Source of the DNA: Paracoccus sp. Z118
Lineage (GTDB): Bacteria; Pseudomonadota; Alphaproteobacteria; Rhodobacterales; Rhodobacteraceae
Direction: 5' to 3'
Assembly (NCBI RefSeq): GCF_019061185.1
Contig: NZ_JAHQZU010000003.1
Span: 124,001-188,000 of the forward strand
DNA: 64,000 bases
Every line of letters starts with the position of its first letter. Positions within the stretch are counted from its first letter, which is position 1. The position numbers were made by a program, and so were the translations under genes. Below are positions 1 through 16,760 of this stretch, piece by piece. The notes under the pieces are model-generated. The model made no database searches. It saw only the letters and a program-made list of their open reading frames with translations, and had not been told where the DNA came from.

Positions 1-1478
1 GTCAGCAGCAGGGCGATGGGCGACGGCTTGCGGGCGAGCAGGCCGGACACCCGCACTGCCGTCGCGCGCCGGTCGAAGCGCCGCACCCGCAGATCGTCGA
101 GGAAACCGCGCCACGTCGCCAGTGTCTCGACCTGAAGCCGGGCGAGGACGCCGGCGGATGACCCGGCATCCGTTCGCAGCCCGTCGCGATAGAGCCGCGC
201 GGCCACGGCCCGCGCGACCTCCACCGCCTGCGCCGCACCGCCGTCCCGCGCGTATGCCCAGCCTCGCGTCGTGTAAGCGCCGGGGATGGCGGCCGTCATC
301 GGCTTGCCCGAGCGCCGGACGGCGATTTCGGCAAGGCCCGGAACCTGCGACGGCCGCCACGGCGCAAGGGCGGTCATTTCCGGCGAGCGGATGAGTTCGA
401 TCCACGCCCGATCCGCCTCGGACGCCTCGGCGGCAAAGACGCGGGCTTGCGCGAGCAGCGCGGGATCAGGCGAAGGGGGCTGGGCGAAGGGCGGGCTCAG
501 CAGCGCGACATGAGGGGCCAGCGCCTGCAGATCGGGCAGCAGCTCGCGGCGGGCCGTCAACCAGCCCTGAAGATAAGCCGGATTCCACGCCCCGTCGCCC
601 GACAGGACGTCCCAGGCGCGAACGGTATCGTAAAGGGCCGGACTGTCGCCCTCGCTCGCCAGCGCCGTGTCGATGGCCCCCGCCAGCACTGGGGGCAGAT
701 GCTGGCGGACGGTCCGGGCCTGCACCTTGCGCGCCCGGCTCGCCGCGTCAAACCCCAGCGGGCCGGCAAAGACCCGGACGGGCGCCTTGGCGAGCGAACG
801 CTCGACCCCTGCCACCGCCGCCGCCATCCGGTCGAGCCGGGGGCCGAGATCGGCGATCTCTCCCGGCCGGTCGAGGCCGATGGACAGCGCCTCGGCGGCG
901 AAGGCCTGCGCCGTCTCCCGATGGAACGCCCATTCGGTATGGACGGCCCAGGCCAGCACGAGCGCCGCGAACCCCAGCACCGCCCCGGCCAGAAGCCGCC
1001 CCCAGCTTTCCGGCGCGCCGGCGTCGGTCCGGGCGCTGGCCGCTTCGACCCGCGTCAGGCAACGCCGCAGGAAAGCGGCCGTATCGGCGAAGGCCGGTCC
1101 CGCCTTGTCGGCTCGGTTGGCGAAATCGCGCAGGCGGGCCGGGGACATCTCCTCGCCCTCGAACAGCAGACGATAGGCGCCGGGCGACCACAGATGCAGG
1201 GGCAGCGCCTCGTTCGACCGCGCCGCCTGATCGAGGACCAGCCCCAGTGCGAGCCGCGCCGGTGCCAGCGTCGCGGCGGGCAGGCCCGCCCGGTGCAGGG
1301 TATCGCCGAAACGGTCGATCCGGGCGCGCGCCTCGCGCAGCAGCGCGGGAACATCGGCCCATGAACCCCGCTCGGCCAGATCGTCGGCCAGCGCCAGAAC
1401 CGGGGTCGCGGCGCGGTCATAGGCGTTCCCCGCCGTCCCCGCGTGCCGGTCAGAGCCTGCCGTCCGCCGCCCAGGCAC
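1..1478 (-). CDS. TssL-like/TssM-like hybrid T6SS membrane protein, 3' end outside window
   Basis: An uninterrupted leftward frame reads from 1478 to base 1 without a stop. I start it at GTG 1478, which has AGGAG seven bases upstream and overlaps the M15 peptidase gene by 29 bases. The first ~150 residues are soluble and helical and resemble the TssL/DotU cytoplasmic domain (a stretch like ARLALGLVLDQAARSNE). One membrane segment follows (LLAGAVLGFAALVLAWAV). The rest resembles the TssM/IcmF periplasmic region, including PALYDTVRAWDVLSGDG and the family-typical IPGAYTTRGW. Normal TssM has about 1,100 residues with an N-terminal GTPase-like domain, and no such domain is visible here. TssL and TssM are separate inner-membrane partners of the T6SS envelope complex, so a chimera would be unusual. 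The TssM-like assignment is firmer than the TssL-like one. Confidence 0.6.
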   Translation of the reverse strand, partial: MPGRRTAGSDRHAGTAGNAYDRAATPVLALADDLAERGSWADVPALLREARARIDRFGDTLHRAGLPAATLAPARLALGLVLDQAARSNEALPLHLWSPGAYRLLFEGEEMSPARLRDFANRADKAGPAFADTAAFLRRCLTRVEAASARTDAGAPESWGRLLAGAVLGFAALVLAWAVHTEWAFHRETAQAFAAEALSIGLDRPGEIADLGPRLDRMAAAVAGVERSLAKAPVRVFAGPLGFDAASRARKVQARTVRQHLPPVLAGAIDTALASEGDSPALYDTVRAWDVLSGDGAWNPAYLQGWLTARRELLPDLQALAPHVALLSPPFAQPPSPDPALLAQARVFAAEASEADRAWIELIRSPEMTALAPWRPSQVPGLAEIAVRRSGKPMTAAIPGAYTTRGWAYARDGGAAQAVEVARAVAARLYRDGLRTDAGSSAGVLARLQVETLATWRGFLDDLRVRRFDRRATAVRVSGLLARKPSPIALLL

Positions 1479-2364
1479 GCAGCGTCTCCTCGCCCACCTC
1501 GAAATGCATGGAATCCTCGCGCCCGTAGGTGGCGCCCCAGAACCAGCCCTCGTCGTTGAAATACTCCGCCAGGATGACCAGCCCCAGCTGCGTCCCGCCA
1601 TCGGCGAAACCGTCCAGCTGCCCCTCCAGCGTCAGGTCGATGGCCGTGCCCCAGGAATGGTTGGAAATGGCCGTCCGCGATCCGCGGATCAGCCGCGCGC
1701 AGAGCGCGCCAGCGGTGCCCAGCTTGGCGTGGATGTCGGGCTCGTTCTCGTTCAGGCGGGTCAGCACGCGGCCAAGGCTTTCGATCGCCGGGCGCAGCAT
1801 CGAGACGCGGATCGGTCCGACCTGCTGCGTCTCGATCAGGGCCTTCAGGCGCGGATTGGTGACGGCCTGACAATCGGTGCCATAGCTGTCCCGCGGCTGG
1901 CCGAGGATTTCCAGCATCACGCTGTTGCGCGGCTGGGTGATGCCGCGATTGAACCGCTGCTTGGCAAGCAGCATGATCTCGGTCGGCTGTTCCGTCGCGA
2001 TCACCTCCTCGAAGTTTTCGCCGGTTCCGGCGTCGGGGGCGATGATCTGTCCCTCGTCTGCCGTGCCCTGTCCCGCGTTCAGCGGCGCGGATTGCGGGGC
2101 CGGGACGCGGGCGCGGTTCGCCAGAAGGCTCAGATCCTCGCGCATCCGCGCCAGTTCGGCCTGCGCCTGCGCCAGCGCGTCCCTGAGTTCGGCGTTCCGT
2201 TCCTCGGCGGCGGCGACCGTCTCCTCCAGCCGGGACAGGCGCAGTTCGGTCGTGGCGTCGGCGCTGTCGAGCAGCGTGGTCACGACCGCAAAGGCGATCG
2301 CCGCGGCCACCAGCCCCATCGCGATGACAGTCGCGCCCGCAAGGCTGCCGCGCCGCAGGGTCAT
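1450..2364 (-). CDS. M15 family peptidoglycan peptidase, T6SS-associated (TagX-like)
   Basis: This 304-residue protein has a non-cleaved N-terminal membrane anchor (about residues 8-31), a coiled coil (about 35-85), a linker and a C-terminal VanY/M15-type zinc peptidase domain. The zinc signature is visible as NHSWGTAIDL (His236, Asp243) and SMHFEV (His287). M15_4 peptidases such as TagX are known in T6SS loci, where they cut cell-wall peptides to let the envelope complex pass. The ATG overlaps the stop of the phosphatase gene (ATGA), so translation is probably coupled. The periplasmic location is inferred from the anchor. The peptidase family is clear; the T6SS role rests on neighbours. Confidence 0.85.
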   Translation of the reverse strand: MTLRRGSLAGATVIAMGLVAAAIAFAVVTTLLDSADATTELRLSRLEETVAAAEERNAELRDALAQAQAELARMREDLSLLANRARVPAPQSAPLNAGQGTADEGQIIAPDAGTGENFEEVIATEQPTEIMLLAKQRFNRGITQPRNSVMLEILGQPRDSYGTDCQAVTNPRLKALIETQQVGPIRVSMLRPAIESLGRVLTRLNENEPDIHAKLGTAGALCARLIRGSRTAISNHSWGTAIDLTLEGQLDGFADGGTQLGLVILAEYFNDEGWFWGATYGREDSMHFEVGEETLRAWAADGRL

Positions 2365-3209
2365 GGCGCGGCCATTCGGACGGCGATCACCGATACGTTG
2401 TCCGGCGCGCCCGCCGCAAGCGTGGCCGTCAGCAGGCGGCGGCAGGCGTCGCGCGGATCGTCTGCGCCCTGCAACATCCGCGCGATCTGCGGGTCGTCGA
2501 GACAGGCCGTCAGCCCGTCGCTGCAAAGAAGCAGCCAGTCACCGGCGGCCAGGGGTACATGCAGGCTGTCCACATCGACCAGCGGCGTGCCGCCCACCGC
2601 GCGGGTGACGACATGGGACTGGGGATGGATGGCGGCCTCGGCGGGGCTGATCTCGCCGCGCTCCACGAGGTCCTGCACGAGCGTATGGTCGCGGGTCAGC
2701 AGCCGCAGCGTCCCGTGCCGGTGAAGATAGGCGCGGCTGTCGCCGACCCAGGCGAGATGCGCCATTCCCCGGCTCATGATCAGGGCGACCACGGTGGCGC
2801 CCATGGTTGAGCCGCCCATCCGCGCGGCGCGCTGGCGCACCATGGCGTTCGCATGTTCGATCCGGGCGACGAGGATCCCTTCGGGATCAGCGCCCGCGTC
2901 CTCGTCGGAGATGCCGGCAAGGCAGTCGATCACGATGTCCGAGGCGATGTCCCCGTGGCCGTGCCCGCCCATCCCGTCCGACACGGCCCAGAGCGTGCCG
3001 CCGGGATCCGTGAGGATCGCGTCCTCGTTCCGCGTGCGGACGCGGCCGCGATGGGTCAGGCCTGCCCCCTCCGGCAACAGCATTGCCGGTGGCGCCTTCG
3101 GCACGCGCGTCACCGGGGCGGCCATCGCCCCCGTCCGCTGCGTGTCACGTCCCTGGGGTCTGCCATCCGACGTCCCGCCCAAGTTGTGAATTGCCTCGAA
3201 TCCGAGCAT
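2361..3209 (-). CDS. PP2C-family Ser/Thr protein phosphatase, T6SS-associated (PppA/Stp-like)
   Basis: This protein of up to 282 residues carries the PP2C metal-binding motifs in order: RVRTRNEDA, VSDGMGGHGHG, WVGDSRAYL, LLCSDGL and GAPDNVSVIAV. PP2C enzymes are Mn/Mg-dependent and remove phosphate from Ser/Thr. In T6SS loci PppA reverses Fha phosphorylation by the PpkA kinase to control firing. No kinase or Fha gene is in this window; they may lie left of base 1. The family-conserved part begins near GLTHRGRVR, so ATG 3125 (253 residues) is an alternative start. It is the first gene of a leftward, overlapping trio with the peptidase and the TssL/TssM-like gene. Confidence 0.9.
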   Translation of the reverse strand: MLGFEAIHNLGGTSDGRPQGRDTQRTGAMAAPVTRVPKAPPAMLLPEGAGLTHRGRVRTRNEDAILTDPGGTLWAVSDGMGGHGHGDIASDIVIDCLAGISDEDAGADPEGILVARIEHANAMVRQRAARMGGSTMGATVVALIMSRGMAHLAWVGDSRAYLHRHGTLRLLTRDHTLVQDLVERGEISPAEAAIHPQSHVVTRAVGGTPLVDVDSLHVPLAAGDWLLLCSDGLTACLDDPQIARMLQGADDPRDACRRLLTATLAAGAPDNVSVIAVRMAAP

Positions 3210-3261: not shown

Positions 3262-4020
3262 ATGCGGTTGCCCTTCCTTCTTGGCCTTGTCCTGCTGGCC
3301 CCGCCGCTGGGTGCCCAGGAATTGTCCGACGATGCCCTGGCTGAACGCTTCCTGCGCCAGCGCGAAGCGTTCCGGGCCGCGGAACGGCCCGATCTCGGCG
3401 CCCCGCGCGGGTTGGAACTGATCACCGTCGATGACCTGACGACCGCGCCTGAAGTCGCGGCCGACGATTCTGCGGAAGAGGGCAGGCCGGCCGTCGCCGC
3501 CGCAGCGCCATTGGCGAGCCAGCCTGTCCGGGTCGAGCCGTCCGCCCCGCCGGGTGGGCTCGGCGGGGTAACGGTCCACGGTAGCGGGCGCGAAACGCCA
3601 CCTGCCGTTCCGGTTCTGCCGACCATCACCGCCGCAGCCGCGCCGCCGACCCCCGCTCCGGTCGTCTTCGGGCGCCTTGACCCCGAGCTGCAGGTCAATG
3701 TCCGGGTGAACTTTCCCTTCGATTCCGCGGTGCTGACGGACGAGCAGACGCCCCGGCTGGAACAGCTTTGCCGGGTGATGAAGGGCAGCGACATCGCGCT
3801 GTTCCGCATCGTGGGCCATACCGACGCGCTGGGGACGGACGCCTATAACGAGCGCCTCTCGCTGCTGCGCGCCGAAGAGGTCGAGCGCTACTTCGTCAGG
3901 GAATGCGGTATCCTGCCCGCCCGGCTCGAAGCCGTGGGCTTCGGAGAGCGCTTTCTGTTCGACCGCGACGACCCCGCCGCCGCGGGCAATCGCCGGGTGG
4001 AGTTCCAGGCGATCAGTTGA
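3262..4020 (+). CDS. OmpA-domain peptidoglycan-binding protein
   Basis: This 252-residue protein starts with a signal peptide (MRLPFLLGLVLLAPPLGA, cleaved before QE). A low-complexity Pro/Ala-rich linker follows, then a C-terminal OmpA-like domain containing NFPFDSAVLT, IVGHTDALGTDAYNERLS and GNRRVEFQ. OmpA domains bind peptidoglycan non-covalently. In T6SS loci such proteins anchor the envelope complex to the wall. I prefer ATG 3262 because it begins directly at the signal peptide; ATG 3232 and 3247 are possible. It is divergent from the phosphatase gene and alone on its strand here. The domain call is certain; the T6SS link is from context. Confidence 0.85.
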   Translation: MRLPFLLGLVLLAPPLGAQELSDDALAERFLRQREAFRAAERPDLGAPRGLELITVDDLTTAPEVAADDSAEEGRPAVAAAAPLASQPVRVEPSAPPGGLGGVTVHGSGRETPPAVPVLPTITAAAAPPTPAPVVFGRLDPELQVNVRVNFPFDSAVLTDEQTPRLEQLCRVMKGSDIALFRIVGHTDALGTDAYNERLSLLRAEEVERYFVRECGILPARLEAVGFGERFLFDRDDPAAAGNRRVEFQAIS

Positions 4021-4328: not shown

Positions 4329-6362
4329 TCACCCGTTCACGCGCACCCATTCCTCTGCGCGGGCGCGGGCGGCGGCCTTCCGTTCTTCGGACAGGTCGAG
4401 CTCCTCCAGCCGCCGCTTCGCCTCGTCCCGATCCTTCAGCTCGCGGGGTCCCCCGCTGATGGCGCCGATGGCGAGGTTGAAGGCGGCCTCGTCCGAACTC
4501 CGCTCGACCCCGCGACCCTGCCGATACATGTCCGCGAGGGCGATCCGGGCGCCGACGAAGCCGTTGTCGATCGCCCGCTGGAACAGTTCGACGGCAAGCG
4601 CGTCATCCCGCGCGACCACCTCTCCATCGCGATAGAGCTTGCCGAGGTTGTAGGGCGCATAGGCGTTGCCAAGTTCGGCCGCGCGGCTGAGCCATTCTAT
4701 CCCCTGCTTGACATCCGGCGTTCCCGCCTCGCCCTTGAGGTAAAGCTGGCCGAGGTTGTTCATGGCGTTGGTGTTGCTGAGCTCCGCCGCGATCCGGTAG
4801 AGGCGGACCGCCTCGTCGATGTCGCGGTCGAGGCCCGTGCCATCCTCGGTCCGGCCGCGGCGATAGAGGTTTCCCAGCGTGTCCAGCGCGTTGGGCCATC
4901 CGTCCTGCGCGGCGAGCCGGTACCAGCGCACCGCCTCGTCCAGATCCTTCTCGACGCTCCAACCGCGTTCGTAGAAGTTGCCCACCCCCATGCGGCCCCT
5001 TAGGTTCCCCAGATCGGCGGCGCGGTGATAGAGCCGCATCGCCTCGGCATAGTCCTGATCGCGGCCCTTGCCGGTCATGTAGAGATAGGCGAGGTTCGAC
5101 ATCGACGCGCTGTAATCCATCGAGCCCGCGACGCGGTAGAACCCCTCGGCCTCATCGGTCCGGTCCAGTATGTCGAGGACGCGCCCCATCTGGTGCAGCA
5201 GGCGCGGGTTGGTCGGATCCTCGGCCAGCGCGGCCGAGCAGGCGCGCAGGGCGATGCGCGTGTTCACCAGACCCCAGCGCACGCCATCGGTGATCCGGCG
5301 CGGATCGTCAGGATCGCCCGCAGTCGCGTCGCATTCCGTCGCCAGCGCGCCGATGCTGCCCGCCTGCGGGGGGGCGGCATCGGGCCGGAACTGCACCAGC
5401 TCCAGCCCGCGCACCTGCGTGCCCTCGGCGGTCAGCGTTTCCGCAAGCGAGCGCGCGGCCTCGGCATGGTCCGACTCGGGGAAGTGGGTCAGGAAGACGT
5501 GGAAATCCTGCGGAACGCGGCTGTCCTCGATCGCCCCCCACCAGAGTTTCTCGACCGCCGGGCGCACCCCTTCCAGCGTGAGCTGGCCCAGATCGAGCTG
5601 CGCGGGCGGCTCGCCCGCGGGCGGGCGGAAGTAGAACTCGCGCTCGACCGAGGCGGAGATGAAGGGAAGCTGCCGACCGTCCGTCCAGATGCGCACCGAC
5701 CGCCGGACCGAGCGGAACACGTCGAGGATATCCTCGCCCGACTTGTCCAGCTCGCTGACCAGCGCGCCCGTATAGGGGCTGTTCGGCCCGCCGCCGTCGA
5801 AGGCGACCTCGCCCGCCTGGGTGGCGAAACCGATCAGCGTCTCGCCGGTCCTGCCTTCCATCGAGGCAAGGCCGCGCCCGGCCTCGGCCTCGGCGGCGTA
5901 GGGATTCTCGCGGCAGGCGTCGAGGATGAAGATCCCGAAGCCCACGCCTTTCTCATGGAGGCGGTCCAGCAGGTCGGACGCCGAGATGCTGGACGCCTCG
6001 ACCTGATCGAGCGATCCCGCCTCGATATCCACCGGCAGCAGATAGTTGCGCCCGTCCGCCTGAATCGCGTGGCCCGCATAGTAGAACAGCCCGACCGCGC
6101 CTTCGGGCAGCGTCGCAAGGAAGCTGTCGATGGCGGTGTCGAACTCGTTTTCGGTGACATTCTCGACCAGCGTCGTCTCGAACCCGGATTCGAGCAGGAC
6201 CGCCGCCATGGAACGGGCGTCGTTCAGCGGGTTGCGAAGAACGCCGAGGCGGTAGTCGGCATTGCCCACGACCAGCGCGTGACGCGGCTCGTCCTGCGCA
6301 TGGGCCGGGGGCGCAAGCAGAAGGGCTGCGCAGAACAGGGCGAGGCGCGGAAACCGGTGCAT
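4329..6362 (-). CDS. Secreted caspase-like (C14) protease with Sel1 repeats
   Basis: The protein has 677 residues. A signal peptide (residues 1-22, ending AHA) is followed by a caspase/metacaspase-type peptidase domain (about 25-250) with the catalytic pair visible as FYYAGHAIQ (His98) and ILDACRENP (Cys150). A linker leads to about seven Sel1-type repeats (about 370-650), with repeating units such as AVRWYRLAAQDG, AVRLYRIAAE and GIEWLSRAAELGNAYA. Sel1 repeats are protein-binding scaffolds. Bacterial caspase-like proteins cut after Arg/Lys or Asp in signalling, cell death or effector contexts. The signal peptide places this one in the periplasm or outside. It lies among T6SS accessory genes, but nothing in the sequence proves it is an effector. 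Confidence 0.85.
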   Translation of the reverse strand: MHRFPRLALFCAALLLAPPAHAQDEPRHALVVGNADYRLGVLRNPLNDARSMAAVLLESGFETTLVENVTENEFDTAIDSFLATLPEGAVGLFYYAGHAIQADGRNYLLPVDIEAGSLDQVEASSISASDLLDRLHEKGVGFGIFILDACRENPYAAEAEAGRGLASMEGRTGETLIGFATQAGEVAFDGGGPNSPYTGALVSELDKSGEDILDVFRSVRRSVRIWTDGRQLPFISASVEREFYFRPPAGEPPAQLDLGQLTLEGVRPAVEKLWWGAIEDSRVPQDFHVFLTHFPESDHAEAARSLAETLTAEGTQVRGLELVQFRPDAAPPQAGSIGALATECDATAGDPDDPRRITDGVRWGLVNTRIALRACSAALAEDPTNPRLLHQMGRVLDILDRTDEAEGFYRVAGSMDYSASMSNLAYLYMTGKGRDQDYAEAMRLYHRAADLGNLRGRMGVGNFYERGWSVEKDLDEAVRWYRLAAQDGWPNALDTLGNLYRRGRTEDGTGLDRDIDEAVRLYRIAAELSNTNAMNNLGQLYLKGEAGTPDVKQGIEWLSRAAELGNAYAPYNLGKLYRDGEVVARDDALAVELFQRAIDNGFVGARIALADMYRQGRGVERSSDEAAFNLAIGAISGGPRELKDRDEAKRRLEELDLSEERKAAARARAEEWVRVNG

Positions 6363-8652: not shown

Positions 8653-9255
8653 GTGTCAAGGATTTCGGATTTCTGGTCCGGCCTCGTCCCGCAGCGCGGA
8701 TCACCCCCGCGCAGGCCCGAGGACAACCCGCTTGCGCAGCGATCTTCCGACGACACGAGGCCGGTGGTCCTGACGACCCTGCTGATGGCCGGCGAGTCCG
8801 CGCGGTCGCGTGTCCTCACGCTCGCGCGCAGGCACCGGCGCCTGCGGATGGTCGTCGTCACCGATGCTGATCGGGTGGCGGCGTTCCTCGGCGAAGGCTG
8901 CGTGGTCGAGCATATGCCCGGCTCCACCCAGGTGGCGCGCCACGCCGTGCGCGGCGACTGGGATACCTATCTGCGCCGCCGCTGGCAGATCATCCTGACC
9001 AAATGGGAGCCGGCCCTCGTCCGCGAGGAAGGGGCCGCGCTGACCGACTATCTCCGCGCTTGCCATGTTTCGGAAACAGCCACAGTGGAGCGAAGCGATG
9101 GGTCATCACTTCCGGCGCCTCAGGGACGGCCTTTCGCTGGCCGGTCTTTCCATCCTCTCGGCCTGCGGAATGCACACGCCGCCGCAGACCCCGGTTTACC
9201 CGCGGACCGTGACACCCGCCCCGCAGACGCCAGCCGTCGCGGCGGCGCCTGCTAG
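8653..9255 (+). CDS. Uncharacterised protein, 3' end doubtful
   Basis: I start this at GTG 8653 because GGAGG lies five bases upstream; the frame is open from ATG 8614. About 140 residues look like a genuine alpha/beta protein (VVLTTLLMAGESARSRV, RMVVVTDADRVAAFLGEGC, a Trp-rich helix), perhaps a partner of the divergent glycosyltransferase. After about base 9064 the residue composition turns Arg/Ser/Ala-rich and the frame overlaps a convincing small lipoprotein gene in another frame. The true C terminus may therefore be earlier, with a frameshift near 9060. No family was recognised. Confidence 0.45.
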   Translation: MSRISDFWSGLVPQRGSPPRRPEDNPLAQRSSDDTRPVVLTTLLMAGESARSRVLTLARRHRRLRMVVVTDADRVAAFLGEGCVVEHMPGSTQVARHAVRGDWDTYLRRRWQIILTKWEPALVREEGAALTDYLRACHVSETATVERSDGSSLPAPQGRPFAGRSFHPLGLRNAHAAADPGLPADRDTRPADASRRGGAC

Positions 9256-9295
9256 CGCCCCGCGCGCCACGGCCCCCAGGCGGACCCAATACTAG
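9098..9295 (+). CDS. Small predicted lipoprotein
   Basis: A 65-residue frame begins at ATG 9098 with GGAG upstream. It encodes a short charged head, a hydrophobic stretch and a lipobox ending in a cysteine (GLSILSAC), followed by a Pro/Thr/Ala-rich tail typical of small outer-membrane lipoproteins. It overlaps the end of the preceding frame by 158 bases. It is too short to be TssJ, the usual T6SS lipoprotein. Its function is unknown. Confidence 0.5.
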   Translation: MGHHFRRLRDGLSLAGLSILSACGMHTPPQTPVYPRTVTPAPQTPAVAAAPASAPRATAPRRTQY

Positions 9296-9358
9296 CAGCC
9301 GCGCATGGACGCAGACGCCCATGCGCGCGATCCGGCCTCCCGTCATGGCGGAGGCGGG

Positions 9359-9904
9359 ATGAGCGCGGGGGGCAGCGTCATGGGCTTCGTCGGCCCCCTT
9401 GGCCGCCAGCGCGGGTTGGTGGATCGGGGTCTCGGGGCTGACACGCTGACCCGCTGGGACCGGTGGTTCGAGATCGTCTGGCGCAACCAGCCGCAAGGAA
9501 CCCTGCACCCCCACCGCCCAGCGTGGCGGATCATGGCCCGAGCCGGGCTGTTCGGGGCCGCCCCGCTCGCCGGGTGCTTCCGTCTCGGACAGGATCTCGA
9601 GGGGCGGGTCCGGCCCTTCGCGCTGCTGCGCCTCGGTCCGGTGCCCGATCCGGCCGATCCTTGGTATGACGCGGCCGAGGCGCTGGTGCAGTCCGCTACA
9701 CGTGGCGCGGCAGGGCCGCGCGAGCTTGCCGCGGCGATGGATCGCCTGCCTTCGCCGCAGCGCCCTGCGCCGGCCCTTGAAGATGCCGCTGTCCTCTGGC
9801 GCGACGACTGGGAGGTTCGCGTCTTTCACTGCGCCACCATCGCCGAACTGACGGCGTTCCCGGCGGCGGAACTCGCCGGCGCAGCCGCGGTGGAGGAAGC
9901 GTGA
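9359..9904 (+). CDS. tagF: T6SS-associated protein TagF
   Basis: From ATG 9359 (GGAGG upstream) the protein has 181 residues. It matches the TagF family in size and in its order of aromatic-rich blocks: MGFVGPLGRQRGLVDRG near the N terminus, FEIVWRNQPQG, AWRIMARAGLFG, PLAGCFRLGQDLEGRVRPF and a C-terminal block containing VLWRDDWEVRVF. TagF acts after translation to hold back T6SS firing, partly through the Fha protein, and is often near the PppA phosphatase, as here. It is probably cytoplasmic. It is the first gene of a rightward run that continues into the PAAR-like cassette. Confidence 0.75.
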   Translation: MSAGGSVMGFVGPLGRQRGLVDRGLGADTLTRWDRWFEIVWRNQPQGTLHPHRPAWRIMARAGLFGAAPLAGCFRLGQDLEGRVRPFALLRLGPVPDPADPWYDAAEALVQSATRGAAGPRELAAAMDRLPSPQRPAPALEDAAVLWRDDWEVRVFHCATIAELTAFPAAELAGAAAVEEA

Positions 9905-9950
9905 TGAGCGGCGTTCCGTTCCCGCCCCGCGCCCGCCGGAAGACGCTGCG

Positions 9951-10832
9951 ATGAGCTGCACCGTCTTCGCCACGACGATGGGGTTCTTTTCGCAGAACAG
10001 CGGCGGGCAGGGGGTGGCGCCGCTGGATACCTGCCTGACCGCGCCCACGCCACCGGCGGGGCCGGTCCCGGTGCCCTATGTCAACGTCACCTTCGCCAAG
10101 GACCTCGACACGGGAAGCGTCACCGTCAAGGCCGACAAGGGCATCGTCTCGATCGGCAGCAAGGGCAAGACCAGCAAGAGCACGGGCGACGAGCCGGGGA
10201 ACATCATGACCAAGGGCGTTGCCTCGCTGACCAACACGGGCGGGGCCAAGTTCCAGACATGGTCGTTCACGGTCCTCATCGAAGGCGATGGCGTGAACTG
10301 CATGGGCGACATGATGATCCAGAACACCGACACGAGCGGGACGCTGATGAACTGCCTCGATCCGGCGGCCATCGTGCAGTTCGCGGCGGCGCTTGCCCAG
10401 CTGGATATGCTCAAGCCGTGCCCGAAGCCTTACAGCAAGGCCTGCCGCCCCGACCGCGACCCCTCGCCCGAGCAGACCAAGGAGGTCGATGGCAAGCCCT
10501 GCTGGGAATGCGAGAAGCTGCCCGACCGTCAGGGCAAGCCGCCGCTCTGGAACACGATGTTCGACGAGAACGGCAAGATCGTCGAGAAGACCGACCGCGA
10601 CAAGCAGGTTCGCCAGAGGGACAAGCCCGGTTCCAAGGAAGCGATGACCCACGATCACCAGCCGCCGCTGGCCGTCGCCTGGGACATGGGCGGGTGCCAT
10701 CTGAAAGCCAGCCCCGACAAGTTCAAGGAACTGTTCGAGAAGAAGGAGATGGTCAAGCCGCACTGCCGGGCGCATTACATGGCGCAGGGACGGGCGATCC
10801 GGGGCGCCGCCAACCGCCTGACGCCGGCCTGA
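9951..10832 (+). CDS. DUF4150/PAAR-like T6SS tip protein with putative C-terminal nuclease-like toxin
   Basis: The protein has 293 residues. The first ~150 match PAAR-like DUF4150 proteins: N-terminal MSCTVFATTMGFF, then TPPAGPVPVPYVNVTFAKD and the block from GVNCMGDMMIQN to MNCLDPAAIVQ. These proteins cap the T6SS spike. The C-terminal ~130 residues form a separate, Cys/His-rich and highly charged part with CWEC (Cys184/Cys187), THDHQPPLAVAWDMGGCH (His234, His236, Cys249, His250) and HCRAH (His271, Cys272, His275). This spacing suggests a zinc-stabilised HNH/His-Me-finger-type nuclease, but I do not recognise the exact family. Two small genes follow immediately, where immunity proteins are usually found. 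The PAAR-like call is strong; the toxin call is inference. Confidence 0.75.
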   Translation: MSCTVFATTMGFFSQNSGGQGVAPLDTCLTAPTPPAGPVPVPYVNVTFAKDLDTGSVTVKADKGIVSIGSKGKTSKSTGDEPGNIMTKGVASLTNTGGAKFQTWSFTVLIEGDGVNCMGDMMIQNTDTSGTLMNCLDPAAIVQFAAALAQLDMLKPCPKPYSKACRPDRDPSPEQTKEVDGKPCWECEKLPDRQGKPPLWNTMFDENGKIVEKTDRDKQVRQRDKPGSKEAMTHDHQPPLAVAWDMGGCHLKASPDKFKELFEKKEMVKPHCRAHYMAQGRAIRGAANRLTPA

Positions 10833-10844
10833 GGGGAAGCGGCC

Positions 10845-11264
10845 ATGGACGAGGAACTCGAACAGGTCCGCGGCGTCTATATCGCCGAGCTTCGCGCGCT
10901 CGCCCCGCGGCTCGGCGCGTGGTGGGAGGCAGGCGTCGCCCGCGACGGCGAGGATGCGTTCGGACGGCGCTGGCCGACCGGCCTTGCGGGGCACCCGTCC
11001 GTCCTCGCCGCGTTCCGCCGCGCCTATCTGGCCATCGAGCGGCTGAACGACGAGCGGGCCGAGGACTGGTCCCCCCAACTCCCCGATCCGCTGTCGGAAG
11101 ACCCTTGGGGCAGCGATGCGGCGGACGAAAAGGGCCGTCCCTTCATCCGTCACGTCGAGGCGCTGGTGGACGATCTCGAGGAGCTTGCGCCGGACGTGTT
11201 CGACCTCGTCTCGGGGCTCGTCTTCGTGCCCATCGGCCTGGATGACGCGGAGGCGGTCGTCTGA
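10845..11264 (+). CDS. Uncharacterised small protein, candidate immunity or adaptor protein (copy 1 of a pair)
   Basis: This acidic 139-residue protein has no signal peptide or membrane span. It starts 12 bases after the PAAR-like gene, with GAGGGGAAG upstream of the ATG. It shares a clear pattern with the next gene: GAWWEAGVA, AGHPSVLAAFRRAYL and a C-terminal FVPIGLDD. A small acidic protein directly after a putative toxin is the usual setting for an immunity protein, but an effector-loading adaptor is also possible. The product belongs to no family I recognise. Confidence 0.65.
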   Translation: MDEELEQVRGVYIAELRALAPRLGAWWEAGVARDGEDAFGRRWPTGLAGHPSVLAAFRRAYLAIERLNDERAEDWSPQLPDPLSEDPWGSDAADEKGRPFIRHVEALVDDLEELAPDVFDLVSGLVFVPIGLDDAEAVV

Positions 11265-11752
11265 TGGCCGCGCTCACCACTTATTTCCGCCATGACGAGG
11301 GCCGGCAGAGGCTGCTTGAACAGCCGCATGACATCATGCCGCGCGACCCGGCAGGGCGGGGCCGCCGGCTTGCCGGGGCGGGGCAGCGCGCGCGCCGGAT
11401 TTTCGGCTATTACCGCGCCGACCTGCGGACCGCGTTCGACATCGCCGCTCCCTGGTGGGAAGCGACCATCGCCGCGCAGGAAAGTCTGGGCCTGTCCCGC
11501 GCCGATGCCGTGCGCGCGTCGTTCGAAAAGCGCGCCGCCGGTGCCGCCTCGCACCCCAAGCTGGTGTGGATCGTGCGCAGCTACTGGCTGAAATGCGGCG
11601 CCCTGACCGAAGGCCCCGCCGAGGATTTGGTCTATCCCGAGGAATTCCTGCTCCTCTGGTTGGAGGAGGCGGGCGAGGATGAACTCGTCCGGTTGATCTG
11701 CTGCATGCCCTACTGGCCCATCGGCCTCGACGCGCAGGGCAACTGGTGCTGA
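11264..11752 (+). CDS. Uncharacterised small protein, candidate immunity or adaptor protein (copy 2 of a pair)
   Basis: This 162-residue protein has an ATG overlapping the previous stop by one base (TGATG), so the two are probably translated together. It is homologous to the preceding protein: APWWEATIA corresponds to GAWWEAGVA, ASHPKLVWIVRSYWL to AGHPSVLAAFRRAYL, and YWPIGLDA to FVPIGLDD. It is longer at its N terminus and richer in aromatic residues. No signal peptide is seen. The pair looks like a tandem duplication that has diverged, as happens with immunity genes. The biochemical function is unknown. Confidence 0.65.
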   Translation: MAALTTYFRHDEGRQRLLEQPHDIMPRDPAGRGRRLAGAGQRARRIFGYYRADLRTAFDIAAPWWEATIAAQESLGLSRADAVRASFEKRAAGAASHPKLVWIVRSYWLKCGALTEGPAEDLVYPEEFLLLWLEEAGEDELVRLICCMPYWPIGLDAQGNWC

Positions 11753-11756
11753 GCCG

Positions 11757-12848
11757 ATGGGCATCGACACCCATATCGAGAACCGCACCCCCTTCGATCT
11801 GAAGCTGCATGTGCAGATGGACGCCGACGGGCAGGAAGTGACGGTGCTCATGCTGTCGGCAAGCTTCACCGCCGACCCCAGCGGGCGGCTGTCGGTGGCG
11901 GAAGCGCAACTGCCGGTGACTTACGCCGACATTCCCCGCGGCGATCCCGCGCGGTCATCGCTGTGCCATGATGCCGATATCGCGCCGCGCAAGCCCGTGC
12001 CCGAGGTGATCCTGAACGCGAGCGCCTACGCGCCGCAGGGACGCCCCGCGGGCCGGGTCGATGTCGGCCTGCAACTGGGCGGCGTCCGCAAGATGCTGGC
12101 CGTCACCGGGGACCGCCTGCGGGCCGCCGGGGGCCTCAGCGATCCGCAGCCCTTCGTCACCATGCCGCTGATCTGGGAACGGGCCTTTGGCGGGACCGCC
12201 GGGCAGGGGGCCGTGGTCGAGCAGCGCAATCCGGTCGGGGTGGGGCTCGCCGGCAGCCGCTCCGCCGACGCGGCGGTGCTGACCGAAGTGCCGAACATCA
12301 CCCGTCCGGCCGAGATCGCGACCCGCCCCGACCAGCGCCCCGAGCCGGTGGGCTTCGGCGTCGTGGCGCGGGGCTGGCGGCCGCGCCTCGACTTCGCGGG
12401 AACCCATGACGACGGCTGGCTTGCCAACCAGTGGCCGCTGCCGCCGCGTGATCTGGACCCCCGCCACCATCAGGCGGCGCCCGCTGACCAGCAATCGCCC
12501 AGCATCCGCCCCGGCGCGGTGGCCGTTCTGGTCAACATGACCCCCGAAGGCCGGTGGGAGTTCCGGCTGCCCCGCCTGACGGCACCCTTGCGGCTGCTGC
12601 ACGACGATCGCGCCGAGGAGGCGGGCTTCGCGCCCGATACCGTGGTGATCGAACCCGACCTGCGCCGGATCACGCTCAAGGCCCGCATGGCCTTCGTGAC
12701 GGACCTGCGCGCCCCCCGGCTGCGCGAGATCCTCTATGGCCATGTCTCGCCCGTGCTGCTGAGCGCGCGGCTGAAGCGCAAGGGCTATCTCGATCCGCTC
12801 GGCGGCGACGGCACCCGCCGCCTTCAGCCCGTCTGGGAGGAGGCGTGA
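11757..12848 (+). CDS. DUF2169 family T6SS accessory protein
   Basis: This 363-residue protein is typical in length and content for DUF2169 proteins, which lie beside PAAR/DUF4150 genes in T6SS loci and are thought to act as effector-loading adaptors. Recognisable blocks are the N-terminal NRTPFDLKLHVQMDADGQ, MPLIWERAFGGTAG, NPVGVGL and FGVVARGWRPRLDFAGTHDDGW. No signal peptide is present, which fits a cytoplasmic chaperone. It begins four bases after the second small gene and its stop overlaps the next start (GTGA), so it lies inside the same transcription unit as the putative effector. Confidence 0.85.
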   Translation: MGIDTHIENRTPFDLKLHVQMDADGQEVTVLMLSASFTADPSGRLSVAEAQLPVTYADIPRGDPARSSLCHDADIAPRKPVPEVILNASAYAPQGRPAGRVDVGLQLGGVRKMLAVTGDRLRAAGGLSDPQPFVTMPLIWERAFGGTAGQGAVVEQRNPVGVGLAGSRSADAAVLTEVPNITRPAEIATRPDQRPEPVGFGVVARGWRPRLDFAGTHDDGWLANQWPLPPRDLDPRHHQAAPADQQSPSIRPGAVAVLVNMTPEGRWEFRLPRLTAPLRLLHDDRAEEAGFAPDTVVIEPDLRRITLKARMAFVTDLRAPRLREILYGHVSPVLLSARLKRKGYLDPLGGDGTRRLQPVWEEA

Positions 12849-13879
12849 GGGTCTCGCTCGACATCGCCGGGGCGGGGGCCGTCACCGCCGCCGGGCTCAC
12901 CGCGCCGCAGACCTGCGCGGCGCACCGGGCCAGCCTGAACGGCTTTCGGCTGATGGTCCTGCCCGATCCGCTGGGTGCCGAGATCACGGTTGCGCGCGTT
13001 CACGGTCACTGGAGCCTTCGGAGCAGTCCCGCGGACTGGCTGGTCAACCTCGGCGTCCGCGCCCTGCGCGAGGCCATGGCGGGGGCGGGGCAGGCGGCCG
13101 CGCCGGGCCTCGCCCTGTTCCTCGTCCCGCCGGAATCGGCGCGCGGGCATCCGGCGCTTCAGGAACTGCCGCCCGAACGCATGCTCGGCCGGATCGCGCA
13201 GGCGGCGGGGATCGGCATCAACCCGGCATCCCGCGTGCTGGACGGGGGCGCTGCCGCGGCGCTGGGCGCGCTGGCCTTTGCCGCGCGCGCGCTGGAACAG
13301 GGACACGCGGCCGAGGTCGTCCTGCTGGCCGTGGACAGCCTGCTGGGGGCGGCTGATCTTGCCGCGCTGCGGGCCGCGCGGCGGCTGCTGGGGCCCGACA
13401 ACGCGCAGGGTCTTATCCCCGGCGAGGGCGCGGTCGCCATCCGCCTGACCCCGCGCGGGCAGGGCGGTGCTGGGGCGCCGTCGGTCCTGGGGGTGGCGAC
13501 CACGCGAGAGCCCGACACCGTGGCCGGATCGCGCTTCAGCCAGGGCCGCGCGCTGCTCACCGCACTGCGGGGCGCGACGGGGGACGGGGCGCTGGAGCCT
13601 CGGGTGGAGTGGGTGCTGACCAACGTGAACGGCGAGCGATATGCCCAGTGGGAATGGAGCCTTGCCCAGGCGCGGTTCTTCCGCTCCGCCCGGACGCGTC
13701 TGCCGGTCGTGCATCCGGCCATGGCGGTGGGCGAGATCGGCGCGGCGGGGGGCGCGCTGGGGCTGCTGATCGCGCGCGACGCTTTCCTGCGCGGCCATGC
13801 GCCGGGCCGGGTCGTCCTGTGCGCCGCCGGCTCGGATGGCGGCCTGCGCTCGGCCGCGCTCGTGGTGGGGGCCGGCTGA
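12845..13879 (+). CDS. Ketosynthase/thiolase-fold protein without catalytic cysteine, T6SS-associated
   Basis: GTG 12845 overlaps the DUF2169 stop and gives 344 residues. The fold is recognisable as beta-ketoacyl synthase-like from VLDGGAAAALGALAFAARAL (nucleophile region), IPGEGAVAIRL and HPAMAVGEIGAAGGALGL. In true ketosynthases the first block contains the active-site Cys; here the matching positions (about 134-138) read Gly-Gly-Ala-Ala-Ala. The first catalytic His is also not in its usual motif, replaced by NGERY (262-266). It is therefore probably a non-catalytic binding protein. Ketosynthase-like genes are known next to DUF2169 genes in T6SS loci, with no clear role. The domain call is good; the function is unknown. 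Confidence 0.75.
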   Translation: MRVSLDIAGAGAVTAAGLTAPQTCAAHRASLNGFRLMVLPDPLGAEITVARVHGHWSLRSSPADWLVNLGVRALREAMAGAGQAAAPGLALFLVPPESARGHPALQELPPERMLGRIAQAAGIGINPASRVLDGGAAAALGALAFAARALEQGHAAEVVLLAVDSLLGAADLAALRAARRLLGPDNAQGLIPGEGAVAIRLTPRGQGGAGAPSVLGVATTREPDTVAGSRFSQGRALLTALRGATGDGALEPRVEWVLTNVNGERYAQWEWSLAQARFFRSARTRLPVVHPAMAVGEIGAAGGALGLLIARDAFLRGHAPGRVVLCAAGSDGGLRSAALVVGAG

Positions 13880-13883
13880 TCCG

Positions 13884-15026
13884 TCAGACCCAGGCGGGGC
13901 CGGGTTGCCGATGCCGCCACGGCGCGAGCGGCCGCGCCGGGGCCGCCATGCCCGCGCGCAGGCTCGCCAGCATCCGCGCGCGTTGCGACACGAACGGGGG
14001 GGCGCCGGCGTCGGGGCCGGGCCAGTCCGCGATGCGGTCGGCGACGGGAAGGGGCAGGGTGTCCAGACCGGCGAAGCCCGGCCCGAGGCTGGCTGCGTCG
14101 TCGGTGAAAAGCGCGCTCGCCCTGATGTCGTTCGCGAACAGATCGCGGAAGGCGCAGCCGGCTGCATGGGCGGTTTCGGGCGAGCGCATCCGCTCGATCA
14201 GCCACGGCAGGATCGAGGCGTCGCCCGGAACTCCGGCGCGGGACAGGGCGAGGATCTGCGTCCCGGGTCGGCCGAGCAGCGTCGTCAGCTCACCAGCCGC
14301 CCTTGGACCGAGGGCGACGAGCGCCAGATCGAGGGCGAACCCCGCCTGCCGGTCATCCGGCCGCTGGCGCACGAACCGGAGCAGGGCGGCGAGCGCGTCT
14401 GCGTCAATCATCCGGGTTCCCGCCCATGCGGGCCAGAGGTGATCGCCTTCCTCCTCCAGCGCCGCGCGCAATCTCGGCAGCATGTCCGTCCGGCCGAGGT
14501 TTCCCGCCAGCCGGGCGGCGGCGCTTCGGGTGGCCGGGTCGGGATCGTCCAGCAGCGCCGCGAGCCCCTTTCCCGGATCGACCCGGTGATGGGAAAGCGC
14601 GGCCACGCCGAGCCTGCGACGGCGGGGATCGTCCGAGGCGAGCCAGCGGCGCACCGGCCCGGAAACTTTGAGGGGAAGGCTCCAGCCGGTCGCGCTGGAC
14701 AGACCCCGCGCGCCCGCCGGTCCGCTGTCCAGTGCCATTCCGGCGGCCTGCTCGACTTCCGTGGCATCACCGGTTTCGAGCGCCAGTGCGGTCAGGACGA
14801 ACCACTCGCCGGTCCCGCCCTGCGCTTGGGCCCCCTCGCGCGCGATCTCGCGGCCCTTGGGCCCCGCGGCCACGAGGCCGTCGATATTCGCGGCCAGCCG
14901 CTGATCGCGCCGCCCCACATCCTCGGCGCTGAAAAGCGGTCCGTCGATCTCGGCCATGCGCTGCGTCCACAGGAACGCCGCGTCCTGCGCGTGCTGGCGA
15001 ACCAGGGCTGGAATGGAGGCGATCAT
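13884..15026 (-). CDS. HEAT-repeat protein, T6SS-associated (TIGR02270-like)
   Basis: From ATG 15026 the protein has 380 residues. Its N terminus, IPALVRQHAQDAAFLWTQR, resembles a conserved family of HEAT-repeat proteins encoded in T6SS loci. The middle is built of alpha-helical HEAT-like units such as RRRRLGVAALSHHRVDPGKG and PDPATRSAAARLAGNLGRT, ending near residue 320. The frame is open up to 15218, but that would cross a strong terminator hairpin, so the internal start is preferred. It is convergent with the ketosynthase-like gene (gap of four bases). HEAT repeats mediate protein binding; the partner is unknown. Confidence 0.75.
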   Translation of the reverse strand: MIASIPALVRQHAQDAAFLWTQRMAEIDGPLFSAEDVGRRDQRLAANIDGLVAAGPKGREIAREGAQAQGGTGEWFVLTALALETGDATEVEQAAGMALDSGPAGARGLSSATGWSLPLKVSGPVRRWLASDDPRRRRLGVAALSHHRVDPGKGLAALLDDPDPATRSAAARLAGNLGRTDMLPRLRAALEEEGDHLWPAWAGTRMIDADALAALLRFVRQRPDDRQAGFALDLALVALGPRAAGELTTLLGRPGTQILALSRAGVPGDASILPWLIERMRSPETAHAAGCAFRDLFANDIRASALFTDDAASLGPGFAGLDTLPLPVADRIADWPGPDAGAPPFVSQRARMLASLRAGMAAPARPLAPWRHRQPGPAWV

Positions 15027-15190
15027 CGCGGCGGCCGGACCCGTTGTCCTTCGGCCAGAATGCCCGAGAAGCCGCGTTCCGGCAATGATCTCCCGCCGCA
15101 GACGAGGCTCTCGATAGTGCTGCTGGACCGCGCCGAAGCGGGCAGCGGTCTGTCTGCATGCGACCAATCGTGGCGCAAGCCGTATCTGAA

Positions 15191-15218
15191 ATGCCCGCCG
15201 CGTGGTCGCGGCGGGCAT
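15191..15218 (-). terminator. Rho-independent-like terminator of the aldehyde dehydrogenase gene
   Basis: A perfect 12-base inverted repeat (ATGCCCGCCGCG, loop of four, then its complement) lies 16-43 bases downstream of the dehydrogenase stop. Only a short T run follows in the leftward direction, so termination may be partial. Confidence 0.7.
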
Positions 15219-15233
15219 CGTCTCACGCGCCCC

Positions 15234-16760
15234 TCAGAAGAAGCCCAGCTTCGAGGCCGAGTAGCTCACCAGCATGTTCTTGGTCTGCTGATAGTGGTCC
15301 AGCATCATCTTGTGCGTCTCGCGCCCGATGCCCGACTGCTTGTAGCCGCCGAAGGCCGAATGGGCCGGATAGGCGTGGTAGTTGTTCACCCACACGCGCC
15401 CGGCCTTGATGCCGCGCCCCATGCGATAGCAGGTGTTCGCGTCGCGGCTCCACACCCCCGCGCCGAGGCCGTAGAGCGTGTCGTTGGCGATCTCCAGCGC
15501 CTCGGCCTCGTCCTTGAAGGTCGTGACCGACACCACCGGGCCGAAGATTTCCTCCTGGAAGACCCGCATCTTGTTGTGGCCGGCGAAGATCGTCGGCTGG
15601 ATGTAGTAGCCGGAGGACAGCTCGCCCCCGAGGTCGGCCACGTCGCCGCCGGTCAGGATCTCGGCGCCCTCGTCCCGGCCGATGTCGAAATAGGACCGGA
15701 TCTTGTCGTGCTGCTCCTTGCTGGCCTGCGCGCCGATCATGGTATCGGACTCGCGCGGGTCGCCCTGCTTGATCGCCTCGACCCGTTTCACGGCCTTTTC
15801 CATGAACCGGTCGTAGATCGATTCCTGCACCAGCACGCGCGACGGGCAGGTGCAGACCTCGCCCTGGTTCAGCGCGAACATGGCGAAGCCTTCCAGCGCC
15901 TTGTCGAGGAAATCGTCATCCTCGCGCGCGACATCGGCGAAGAAGACGTTGGGCGACTTGCCGCCCAGTTCCAGCGTCACCGGGATCAGGTTCTCGGCCG
16001 CGTATTGCATGATGAGCCGGCCGGTCGAGGTTTCGCCGGTGAAGGCGATCTTGGCGATCCGCTTCGACGAGGCCAGCGGCTTGCCCGCTTCCAGCCCGAA
16101 GCCGTTGACGATGTTCAGCACCCCGTCGGGCAGCAGGTCGCCGATGGTGTCGATCCAGACCATGATCGAGGCCGGCGTCTGTTCGGCCGGCTTCAGCACC
16201 ACGCAGTTGCCTGCCGCCAGCGCCGGGGCCAGCTTCCAGCAGGCCATCAGCAGCGGGAAGTTCCACGGGATGATCTGGCCGACGACGCCCAGCGGCTCGT
16301 GGAAGTGATAGGCGACCGTGTTGTCGTCGATCTGGCTGAGGCTGCCTTCCTGCGAGCGCAGCACGCCCGCGAAATAGCGGAAATGGTCGATGGCCAGCGG
16401 CACGTCGGCGGCCATCGTCTCGCGGATCGGCTTGCCGTTGTCCCAGGTCTCGGCGGTGGCGAGCAGTTGCAGGTTCGCCTCCATCCGGTCGGCGATCTTC
16501 AGCAGGATGTTCGACCGCTCCTGCGCGCTGGTGCGGCCCCAGGCGTCGGCGGCGGCATGGGCGGCGTCCAGCGCCAGGTCGATGTCGGATTCGTCCGAGC
16601 GGGCGATCTCGCTCATCTTCGCGCCGGTGATCGGGGTGGTGTTGTCGAAATAGCGCCCGGCCTTCGGCGCGACCCATTTGCCGCCGATGTAGTTGTCGTA
16701 GCGCCCGGTGAAGGGCATGGCGCTGACGCCCTTGAAATCATGCGTCTGGTCGTTGGGCAT
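15234..16760 (-). CDS. NAD(P)-dependent aldehyde dehydrogenase (AcoD/ExaC-like)
   Basis: This is a full-length, 508-residue class aldehyde dehydrogenase. The ATG at 16760 has GGAGG upstream. The cofactor region ([30 protein letters not shown]), the general base ([10 protein letters not shown], Glu264) and the nucleophile ([11 protein letters not shown], Cys303) are all present. It oxidises aldehydes to acids with NAD(P)+; closest in feel to the acetaldehyde dehydrogenases used in ethanol or acetoin breakdown. It lies 113 bases downstream of an AcoR-like activator gene on the same strand, which suggests it is the regulator's target. The exact substrate cannot be read from the sequence. Confidence 0.9.

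Follow-up and report, generated by a model that had tools for sequence, protein, structure and literature searches.

A TssL-TssM chimera encoded beside a predicted M15 peptidase in alphaproteobacterial type VI secretion clusters

Some alphaproteobacteria bear, beside complete type VI secretion system (T6SS) genes, an extra membrane protein in which a TssL-type N-terminal part is joined to a TssM-type periplasmic region. The inner-membrane core of the T6SS has two subunits, TssL and TssM, which to our knowledge have been described solely as separate partners. Here the hybrid is confirmed as a real protein, with both halves in one chain, and the position of its gene directly after that of a probable wall-cutting enzyme points to a part dedicated to taking the T6SS through the wall. 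The window, by which we mean the whole 64,000-nucleotide stretch of DNA analysed (C95:124001-188000, from a 3.6 Mb genome), carries the N-terminal 492 of the 822 codons of the chimera gene; the other 330 residues fall outside it because the gene extends to -990. On the contig the open reading frame occupies C95:123010-125478, starts with GTG at window position 1478 and has no internal stop. The genome is probably that of a Paracoccus, since the chimera of another genome of its genus (G006) is identical in alignment A1 to the one from P. zhejiangensis. The features considered are collected in Table 1.

Table 1. Window coordinates of the chimera gene, its parts and the neighbouring cassette genes
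Feature	Window position	Strand	Basis
TssL-TssM chimera gene	1..1478, onward to -990	minus	ORF, translation, Pfam, AlphaFold, fold searches
TssL/DotU-like domain, predicted cytoplasmic, residues 15-153	1020..1436	minus	DotU profile, VIA fold matches
Single predicted membrane span, residues 162-180	939..995	minus	Hydropathy scan; model helix 158-184
TssM-type region, predicted periplasmic, in-window part	1..842	minus	Pfam, profile-profile comparison, fold search
M15 family (PF13539) predicted peptidase, 304 aa	1450..2364	minus	Pfam 4.9e-11; SNHSWGTAID + MHFE
PP2C Ser/Thr phosphatase	2361..3125	minus	PF00481 1e-13; homolog alignment
OmpA-family protein, divergent from PP2C-M15-chimera operon	3262..4020	plus	PF00691 8.1e-16

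Chimera residues ~196-820 match the TssM periplasmic region, and the TssM GTPase domain is absent. Pfam places the IcmF-related family PF06761 at residues 213-499 (3.4e-30), which extends slightly beyond the window's left end, and IcmF_C PF06744 at 730-800 (1.7e-11); the helical and C-terminal IcmF domains are encoded to the left of the window. PF06761 and PF06744 recur in 14/14 chimera family members tested. PF14331, the GTPase/nucleotide-binding domain, was not found in the chimera by Pfam, whereas the cluster's own TssM scores 5.5e-88, and it is absent among the families matched by these 14 members. A Walker A pattern, present in 1/62 chimeras, was taken as chance. Against TIGR03348 the chimera scores 228.6 bits, below the curated TssM equivalog cut-off of 388.15. 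BLASTP aligned it with the cluster's TssM at 31% identity over 277 residues (4e-28), and a profile-profile comparison of 62 chimeras with 7 TssM proteins (own included) set residues 196-816 on TssM residues 491-1182 (99.9%, E 3.6e-37). The full-length AlphaFold model examined, m324dfb920a46, is that of a relative in locus L136 (817 aa, mean pLDDT 90.1, pTM 0.68). Foldseek matched it to TssM of enteroaggregative E. coli (EAEC) at 1.1e-13 (6ixh) and 8.2e-10 (4y7m), and its VIA Z against the TssM C-terminal domain 4y7o was 21.2 (rmsd 3.0 over 228 residues). For the TssM core 6ixh the VIA Z was 19.4 over 430 residues with an rmsd of 23.6, which means that the domains match one by one, not in their mutual placing.

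For the N-terminal part, each single sign of kinship to TssL is weaker, and the question was approached from several sides. The DotU family PF09850 aligns with residues 22-97 (3e-4, 20.9 bits), and residues 1-185 alone score 23.5 bits; both values lie under the curated cut-off of 27. Across the family, 62/63 N-termini, own included, hit DotU at E<=0.1 (best 7.5e-9), as do 14/14 family members searched separately; the next-best family matches 3/63. No BLASTP match was found between the chimera and the cluster's own TssL, and hhalign of the 63 N-termini with 15 TssL proteins was in register with an E of 0.055 and ~1% probability. In BLASTP, the chimera stretch 5-142 shares 25% identity with TssL from a related genome (L155; E 3.4e-5, one-locus database), and a profile search of PDB sequences returned the TssM C-terminal domain first (1.3e-11), then TssL at 0.15 and 0.64.

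Predicted structures point the same way. An AlphaFold model of residues 1-185 of the window's chimera (mean pLDDT 90.7) matches three TssL structures with VIA Z of 13.8 (rmsd 3.3, 135 residues), 13.6 (3.1, 130) and 13.4 (4.4, 140), bearing in mind that predominantly helical models may score 13-14 by chance. Behind them stands Yersinia YPO0514 (Z 11.7), whose structure is titled an OmpA-family membrane protein and which we take to be a long-form TssL; the next unrelated row scores 7.4. With the L136 model, TssL follows TssM at 13.7, 13.6 and 13.4, the four TssL-type rows span 13.7-12.2, and the next unrelated row is at 7.7. In Foldseek, the N-terminal model finds TssL at E 0.21-1.7 among the matches listed, with three unrelated helical rows ranking above, and the TssL and YPO0514 chains have probabilities of 0.94-1.00 and TM-scores (target) of 0.51-0.66. 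At the residue level, an Asp (58/63 chimeras) aligns with the first D of the TssL DD motif and a Trp (63/63) with a conserved TssL Trp. The PWG motif, within DD...NTPWG, is present in 15/15 cluster TssL proteins aligned and 0/63 chimeras, and the N-terminal motif GRT(R/K)xRP in 14/15 TssL and 0/62 chimeras. All signs combined, a TssL origin of the N-terminal part is very probable. The first-pass annotation had proposed a TssL-like head, one membrane span and a TssM-like periplasmic region lacking the GTPase domain. Profile, predicted structure and the conserved family bear out that architecture, with the head matching TssL both by the DotU profile across the family and by its predicted fold, and the loss of the GTPase domain agrees with the missing PF14331.

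By a hydropathy scan, the chimera and the cluster's TssL each have one predicted membrane span, and the cluster's TssM has three. Five Arg residues lie in the 30 residues preceding the chimera span and two in the 30 following. From this charge distribution and the domain order, the chimera would sit in the inner membrane with its TssL-like head in the cytoplasm and its TssM-like body in the periplasm.

The chimera belongs to a T6SS cluster headed by tssH on the minus strand. In contig order there follow, on the plus strand, the ppkA kinase gene, tssA, B, C, hcp, tssE, F, G, tagH, tssJ, tssK, tssL, tssM and tagF, then vgrG, the chimera, M15 and PP2C (minus), and finally the OmpA-family gene (plus); cluster genes were named against annotated relatives, Pseudosulfitobacter for most. 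The core genes, tssJ, tssL and tssM included, sit just left of the window. The cluster's TssL (455 aa) has an OmpA domain, and its TssM is complete, with 1183 aa and 1149 bits to TIGR03348. The M15 gene overlaps the chimera start by 29 bases; its product has one N-terminal hydrophobic stretch, by eye, and a PDB sequence search with it found nothing relevant. Of the two roles offered by the first-pass annotation, a reduced envelope complex fails because TssJ, TssL and TssM are all encoded in this cluster, and their genes are also clustered in seven annotated chimera-bearing relatives; a specialised second copy fits the separate full-length TssM and TssL genes that it had asked about, both of which lie in the same cluster. 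The longer TssM that a sequencing error might have hidden does not appear: M15 overlaps the start, and the 1183-aa TssM is separate. Replacement by the chimera of a missing TssJ, TssL or TssM is ruled out, all three being present.

Further genes near the cassette were noted in passing. A caspase-domain protein with Sel1 repeats is encoded at 4329-6362 (minus), and four other carriers likewise have annotated caspase-family genes, no more than ~10 kb from the chimera. A second TagF-type domain lies at 9305-9904 (plus; PF09867 at 26.4 bits, cut-off 27), far from the tagF adjacent to tssM. The stretch at 9951-12848 (plus) is a likely T6SS effector module, with a PAAR-like Toxin protein (PF13665, 5.9e-23), a DUF2169 protein (5.8e-83) and two small genes without Pfam match, possibly for immunity. 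Adjoining the DUF2169 gene, 12845-13879 (plus) encodes a beta-ketoacyl-synthase-like protein (PF00109 at 0.0011, below cut-off); the accessible text of PMC10564176 likens a structure model of Acinetobacter TsmK to ketoacyl synthase. A glycosyltransferase-like protein (PF04101; 6433-8601, minus) and a HEAT-repeat protein (13884-15218, minus) each have a relative in the corresponding region in Rhodobacter sp. CZR27.

Relatives of the chimera were found at 76 distinct loci among genome contigs (from the best 80 of 81 confirmed); a first scan of genome contigs with the single chimera protein as query had confirmed none. Seventeen loci are rhizobial by title (Rhizobiaceae), the other 59 are Rhodobacterales or unplaced alphaproteobacterial bins, and one is in Paracoccus denitrificans DSM 413 (L147). 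Chimera frames are uninterrupted at the 62 loci of alignment A3, which has 65 invariant columns. Among plasmid records, 43 have a match, 32 of them at a coverage of at least 80%; three are Azospirillum, and the two of these among the matches listed are ordinary TssM. Public annotation of the plasmid proteins is mostly 'ImcF-related family protein', and otherwise 'hypothetical conserved protein' or 'type VI secretion system IcmF family protein'. In taxonomic samples the chimera is a rare, lineage-bound part: it occurs in 5/61 sampled relatives, all five among the 37 genomes of the same genus, and in 10/394 genomes of the family, where 99 had any match (two candidates scored per genome) and two of the ten chimeras are split between frames (G069, G082). 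At E<=1e-60 the class sample yielded 1/385, the window's own genome, and the phylum sample 2/398, its own and one of the same class. In a tree of author-chosen rows three groups emerge (100/100, 100/100, 99/91): the 14 chimeras, the TssM of carrier clusters (13) and those of other clusters (8). The simplest interpretation is therefore that the chimera arose once. M15 proteins, in a tree likewise built on chosen rows, also split by carrier status, 17 versus 6.

Linkage is tightest with the cassette genes. Since 3/76 loci start inside the chimera at a contig end, the cassette was scored on 73, and OmpA (minus), PP2C (plus), M15 (plus) and chimera (plus) stand together in 73/73 loci having upstream DNA. 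The distance from M15 end to chimera start in relatives is -25 to +47 bases (starts by the author's rule). All 73 M15 proteins retain the His and Asp of SxHxxGxAxD (the motif itself in 68, SNHSWATAID in 5) as well as HFE; we take these to be metal-site residues. An author-made loose PP2C pattern fits 21/73 PP2C proteins. In the flanking DNA examined, vgrG accompanies 55/59 and tssM 50/59 non-rhizobial loci, whereas rhizobial loci have tssH in 17/17 and vgrG and tssM in 0/17, and three loci (L128, L131, L145) have no other T6SS gene. Rhizobial tssM lies ~19 kb from the chimera in annotated plasmids and is not within ~10 kb in 17/17 loci. Because the cassette is kept in 73/73 loci and tssM is not always near, the chimera is tied more tightly to M15, PP2C and OmpA than to tssM. 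The cassette moves as a block, linked to vgrG in non-rhizobial and to tssH in rhizobial loci.

The peptidase module is nonetheless wider in occurrence than the chimera. M15 matches were found in 62/80 tested family genomes with a TssM-type match (of 99), at 58-100% identity in the 10 chimera carriers and 36-52% in the 52 genomes without a chimera hit. In three chimera-less loci (L151, L152, L155) tssM is followed at 4-5 kb by an M15 gene, and the reading frames listed between or near include PP2C in 2/3 and OmpA in 2/3. In one of them, L152 (G067), the stretch 9141-16048 unites TagF, PP2C, OmpA, M15, a caspase-like gene and a frame that resembles a kinase by eye; the accessory set thus occurs where no chimera is encoded. 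M15 in chimera-less T6SS genomes implies that the peptidase as such has no need of the chimera, and as a general rule the proposition that the M15 peptidase needs it is ruled out. Over the N-terminal 125 residues, M15 identity to the window's own is 36-57% in 10 chimera-positive Rhodobacterales, 20-29% in 6 positive rhizobia and 11-21% in 6 chimera-negative relatives, a comparison covering 16 of 73 chimera-positive loci chosen by the author; over the remainder it is 63-78, 56-61 and 49-52%, respectively. The N-terminal pattern is a faint hint at most and may reflect overall divergence only.

The reading that we put foremost, at about an even balance, is that the chimera serves the T6SS membrane complex as a dedicated accessory subunit, most likely recruiting, placing or activating its M15 operon partner. 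The gene order, a PF13539 peptidase followed at once by a protein with a TssM-type periplasmic body, points to a dedicated enzyme holder or switch. A single event, apparently, would have joined a TssL-type cytoplasmic domain to a TssM-type span and periplasmic region, leaving out the GTPase domain, and the product would join or neighbour the TssJLM complex via its TssM-like body. There it could recruit, place or switch on the M15 peptidoglycan peptidase, opening the wall solely at the machine's assembly site, and PP2C together with the cluster's kinase-FHA-TssL pathway could set the timing. Membership of the complex and coupling to the peptidase are both proposed, the latter on the strength of gene order and a published parallel. 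The head, without PWG and GRT(R/K)xRP, may bind TssM or TssL and not Fha or the baseplate; the GRT(R/K)xRP motif of the aligned TssL proteins is probably the same site as Thr14 of Agrobacterium TssL, a target of PpkA phosphorylation and of Fha binding in the part of PMC3953482 consulted. More tentatively, two TssM-type proteins would enter the envelope complex in one T6SS lineage, the usual TssM and a chimera that takes a wall peptidase of its own to where the machine is assembled. If so, wall opening would be a built-in, switchable step of the machine and not one borrowed from housekeeping enzymes.

Other accounts were weighed against this one. The chimera might fill some TssM (and TssL) positions in a mixed ring and alter stability or gating without a special tie to the peptidase, a possibility to which we give about half the weight of the accessory-subunit reading. 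Its TssM-like part covers the TssM periplasmic region through to the C-terminus, the best studied complex has ten TssM and ten TssL, which makes mixed rings conceivable (PMC10433429, available sections), and in one tree chimeras and carrier TssM share broad groups, rhizobial and Roseobacteraceae. Such a subunit sits poorly, however, with the 73/73 linkage to M15, PP2C and OmpA where tssM is not within ~10 kb in 17/17 rhizobial loci, and with the PWG motif missing from the head (0/63 against 15/15 TssL). A regulatory brake or decoy, in which the head, devoid of the phosphothreonine motif, would draw partners away from TssL and have a link to the operon's PP2C, is unlikely. It would explain why GRT(R/K)xRP occurs in 14/15 TssL and 0/62 chimeras, given that Thr14 phosphorylation of Agrobacterium TssL and Fha binding activate the T6SS (PMC3953482, same portion), and why a PP2C gene stands in the operon. 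But PP2C is also present in the chimera-less clusters L151 and L152, so its presence fails to single out the chimera, and a decoy has no obvious need for a TssM-type periplasmic region.

The remaining accounts concern what the protein is. A TssM whose cytoplasmic part was swapped for a generic helical bundle unrelated to TssL would accommodate the weak BLASTP and hhalign scores against TssL, the missed DotU cut-off and the non-significant Foldseek E-values; we hold it improbable, since DotU is matched in 62/63 members and any other family in at most 3, three TssL structures lead VIA at Z 13.4-13.8 with YPO0514 at 11.7 and the next at 7.4, the L155 TssL aligns at E 3.4e-5, and the PDB profile search puts TssL right after TssM. 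Two relatives split between frames (G069, G082) might hint at a relic, a frameshifted TssM or an assembly artefact, but the probability is negligible in view of the 62 uninterrupted loci with 65 invariant columns, the start overlapped by M15 and the complete TssM of the cluster. A truncated or frameshifted TssM is ruled out by the separate complete TssM, the chimera's own start and the conserved family; with a full-length TssM separately encoded in the same cluster, the chimera is not a broken one.

The favoured reading, a dedicated accessory subunit, touches a question raised in the available portion of one review, namely how an ~18 nm wide complex passes the wall; wall enzymes, it adds, are rarely encoded in T6SS clusters (PMC10433429). 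With a conserved fusion firmly linked to a peptidase gene, that question becomes testable, for instance in P. denitrificans DSM 413, which is easily handled. In the literature searched (fusions, hybrids, ImcF-related proteins, wall peptidases, alphaproteobacterial T6SS; subscription papers mostly beyond reach, so that absence is unproven), we found no description of a TssL-TssM fusion, and the architecture, as a T6SS membrane-complex accessory subunit, is unreported there. A term search of the accessible text of two plasmid T6SS surveys returned 'ImcF' 0 times (PMC9113992, PMC13098142), and the R. etli Mim1 T6SS paper leaves a chimera-type gene unmentioned in the parts examined; the gene order given there, with hcp and vgrG beside tssH, differs from that of rhizobial chimera clusters.

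Among known proteins, the chimera resembles TssM (IcmF/VasK, TIGR03348) in having a span followed by PF06761 and helical and C2-like C-terminal domains with the EAEC TssM fold. Unlike TssM, it lacks the PF14331/GTPase domain, has a single span where TssM has three and bears a TssL-type head; in the tree, the 14 chimeras are set off from the 21 TssM (100/100). With TssL (DotU/IcmH, PF09850) it shares the modelled fold of the cytoplasmic domain and the aligned Asp and Trp, but PWG and GRT(R/K)xRP are absent, and a TssM-type periplasmic region replaces the OmpA domain. The neighbouring M15 protein is, at the level of domain family, like Acinetobacter TagX: both are encoded within T6SS clusters and combine PF13539 with hydrophobic sequence at the N-terminus, although here one stretch is seen by eye, whereas the TagX paper predicts two membrane spans. 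TagX is an L,D-endopeptidase that cleaves peptidoglycan and is essential for the Acinetobacter T6SS, according to the accessible part of PMC5061870. It co-purified with TssM, TssL and TsmK in PMC10564176, as far as that text was available, where the introduction terms its activity lytic transglycosylase. The TsmK/TslA/TagX complex described there is comparable by role, with accessory membrane-complex proteins alongside a wall enzyme; it differs in that TssJ is missing in Acinetobacter and present in the chimera's cluster.
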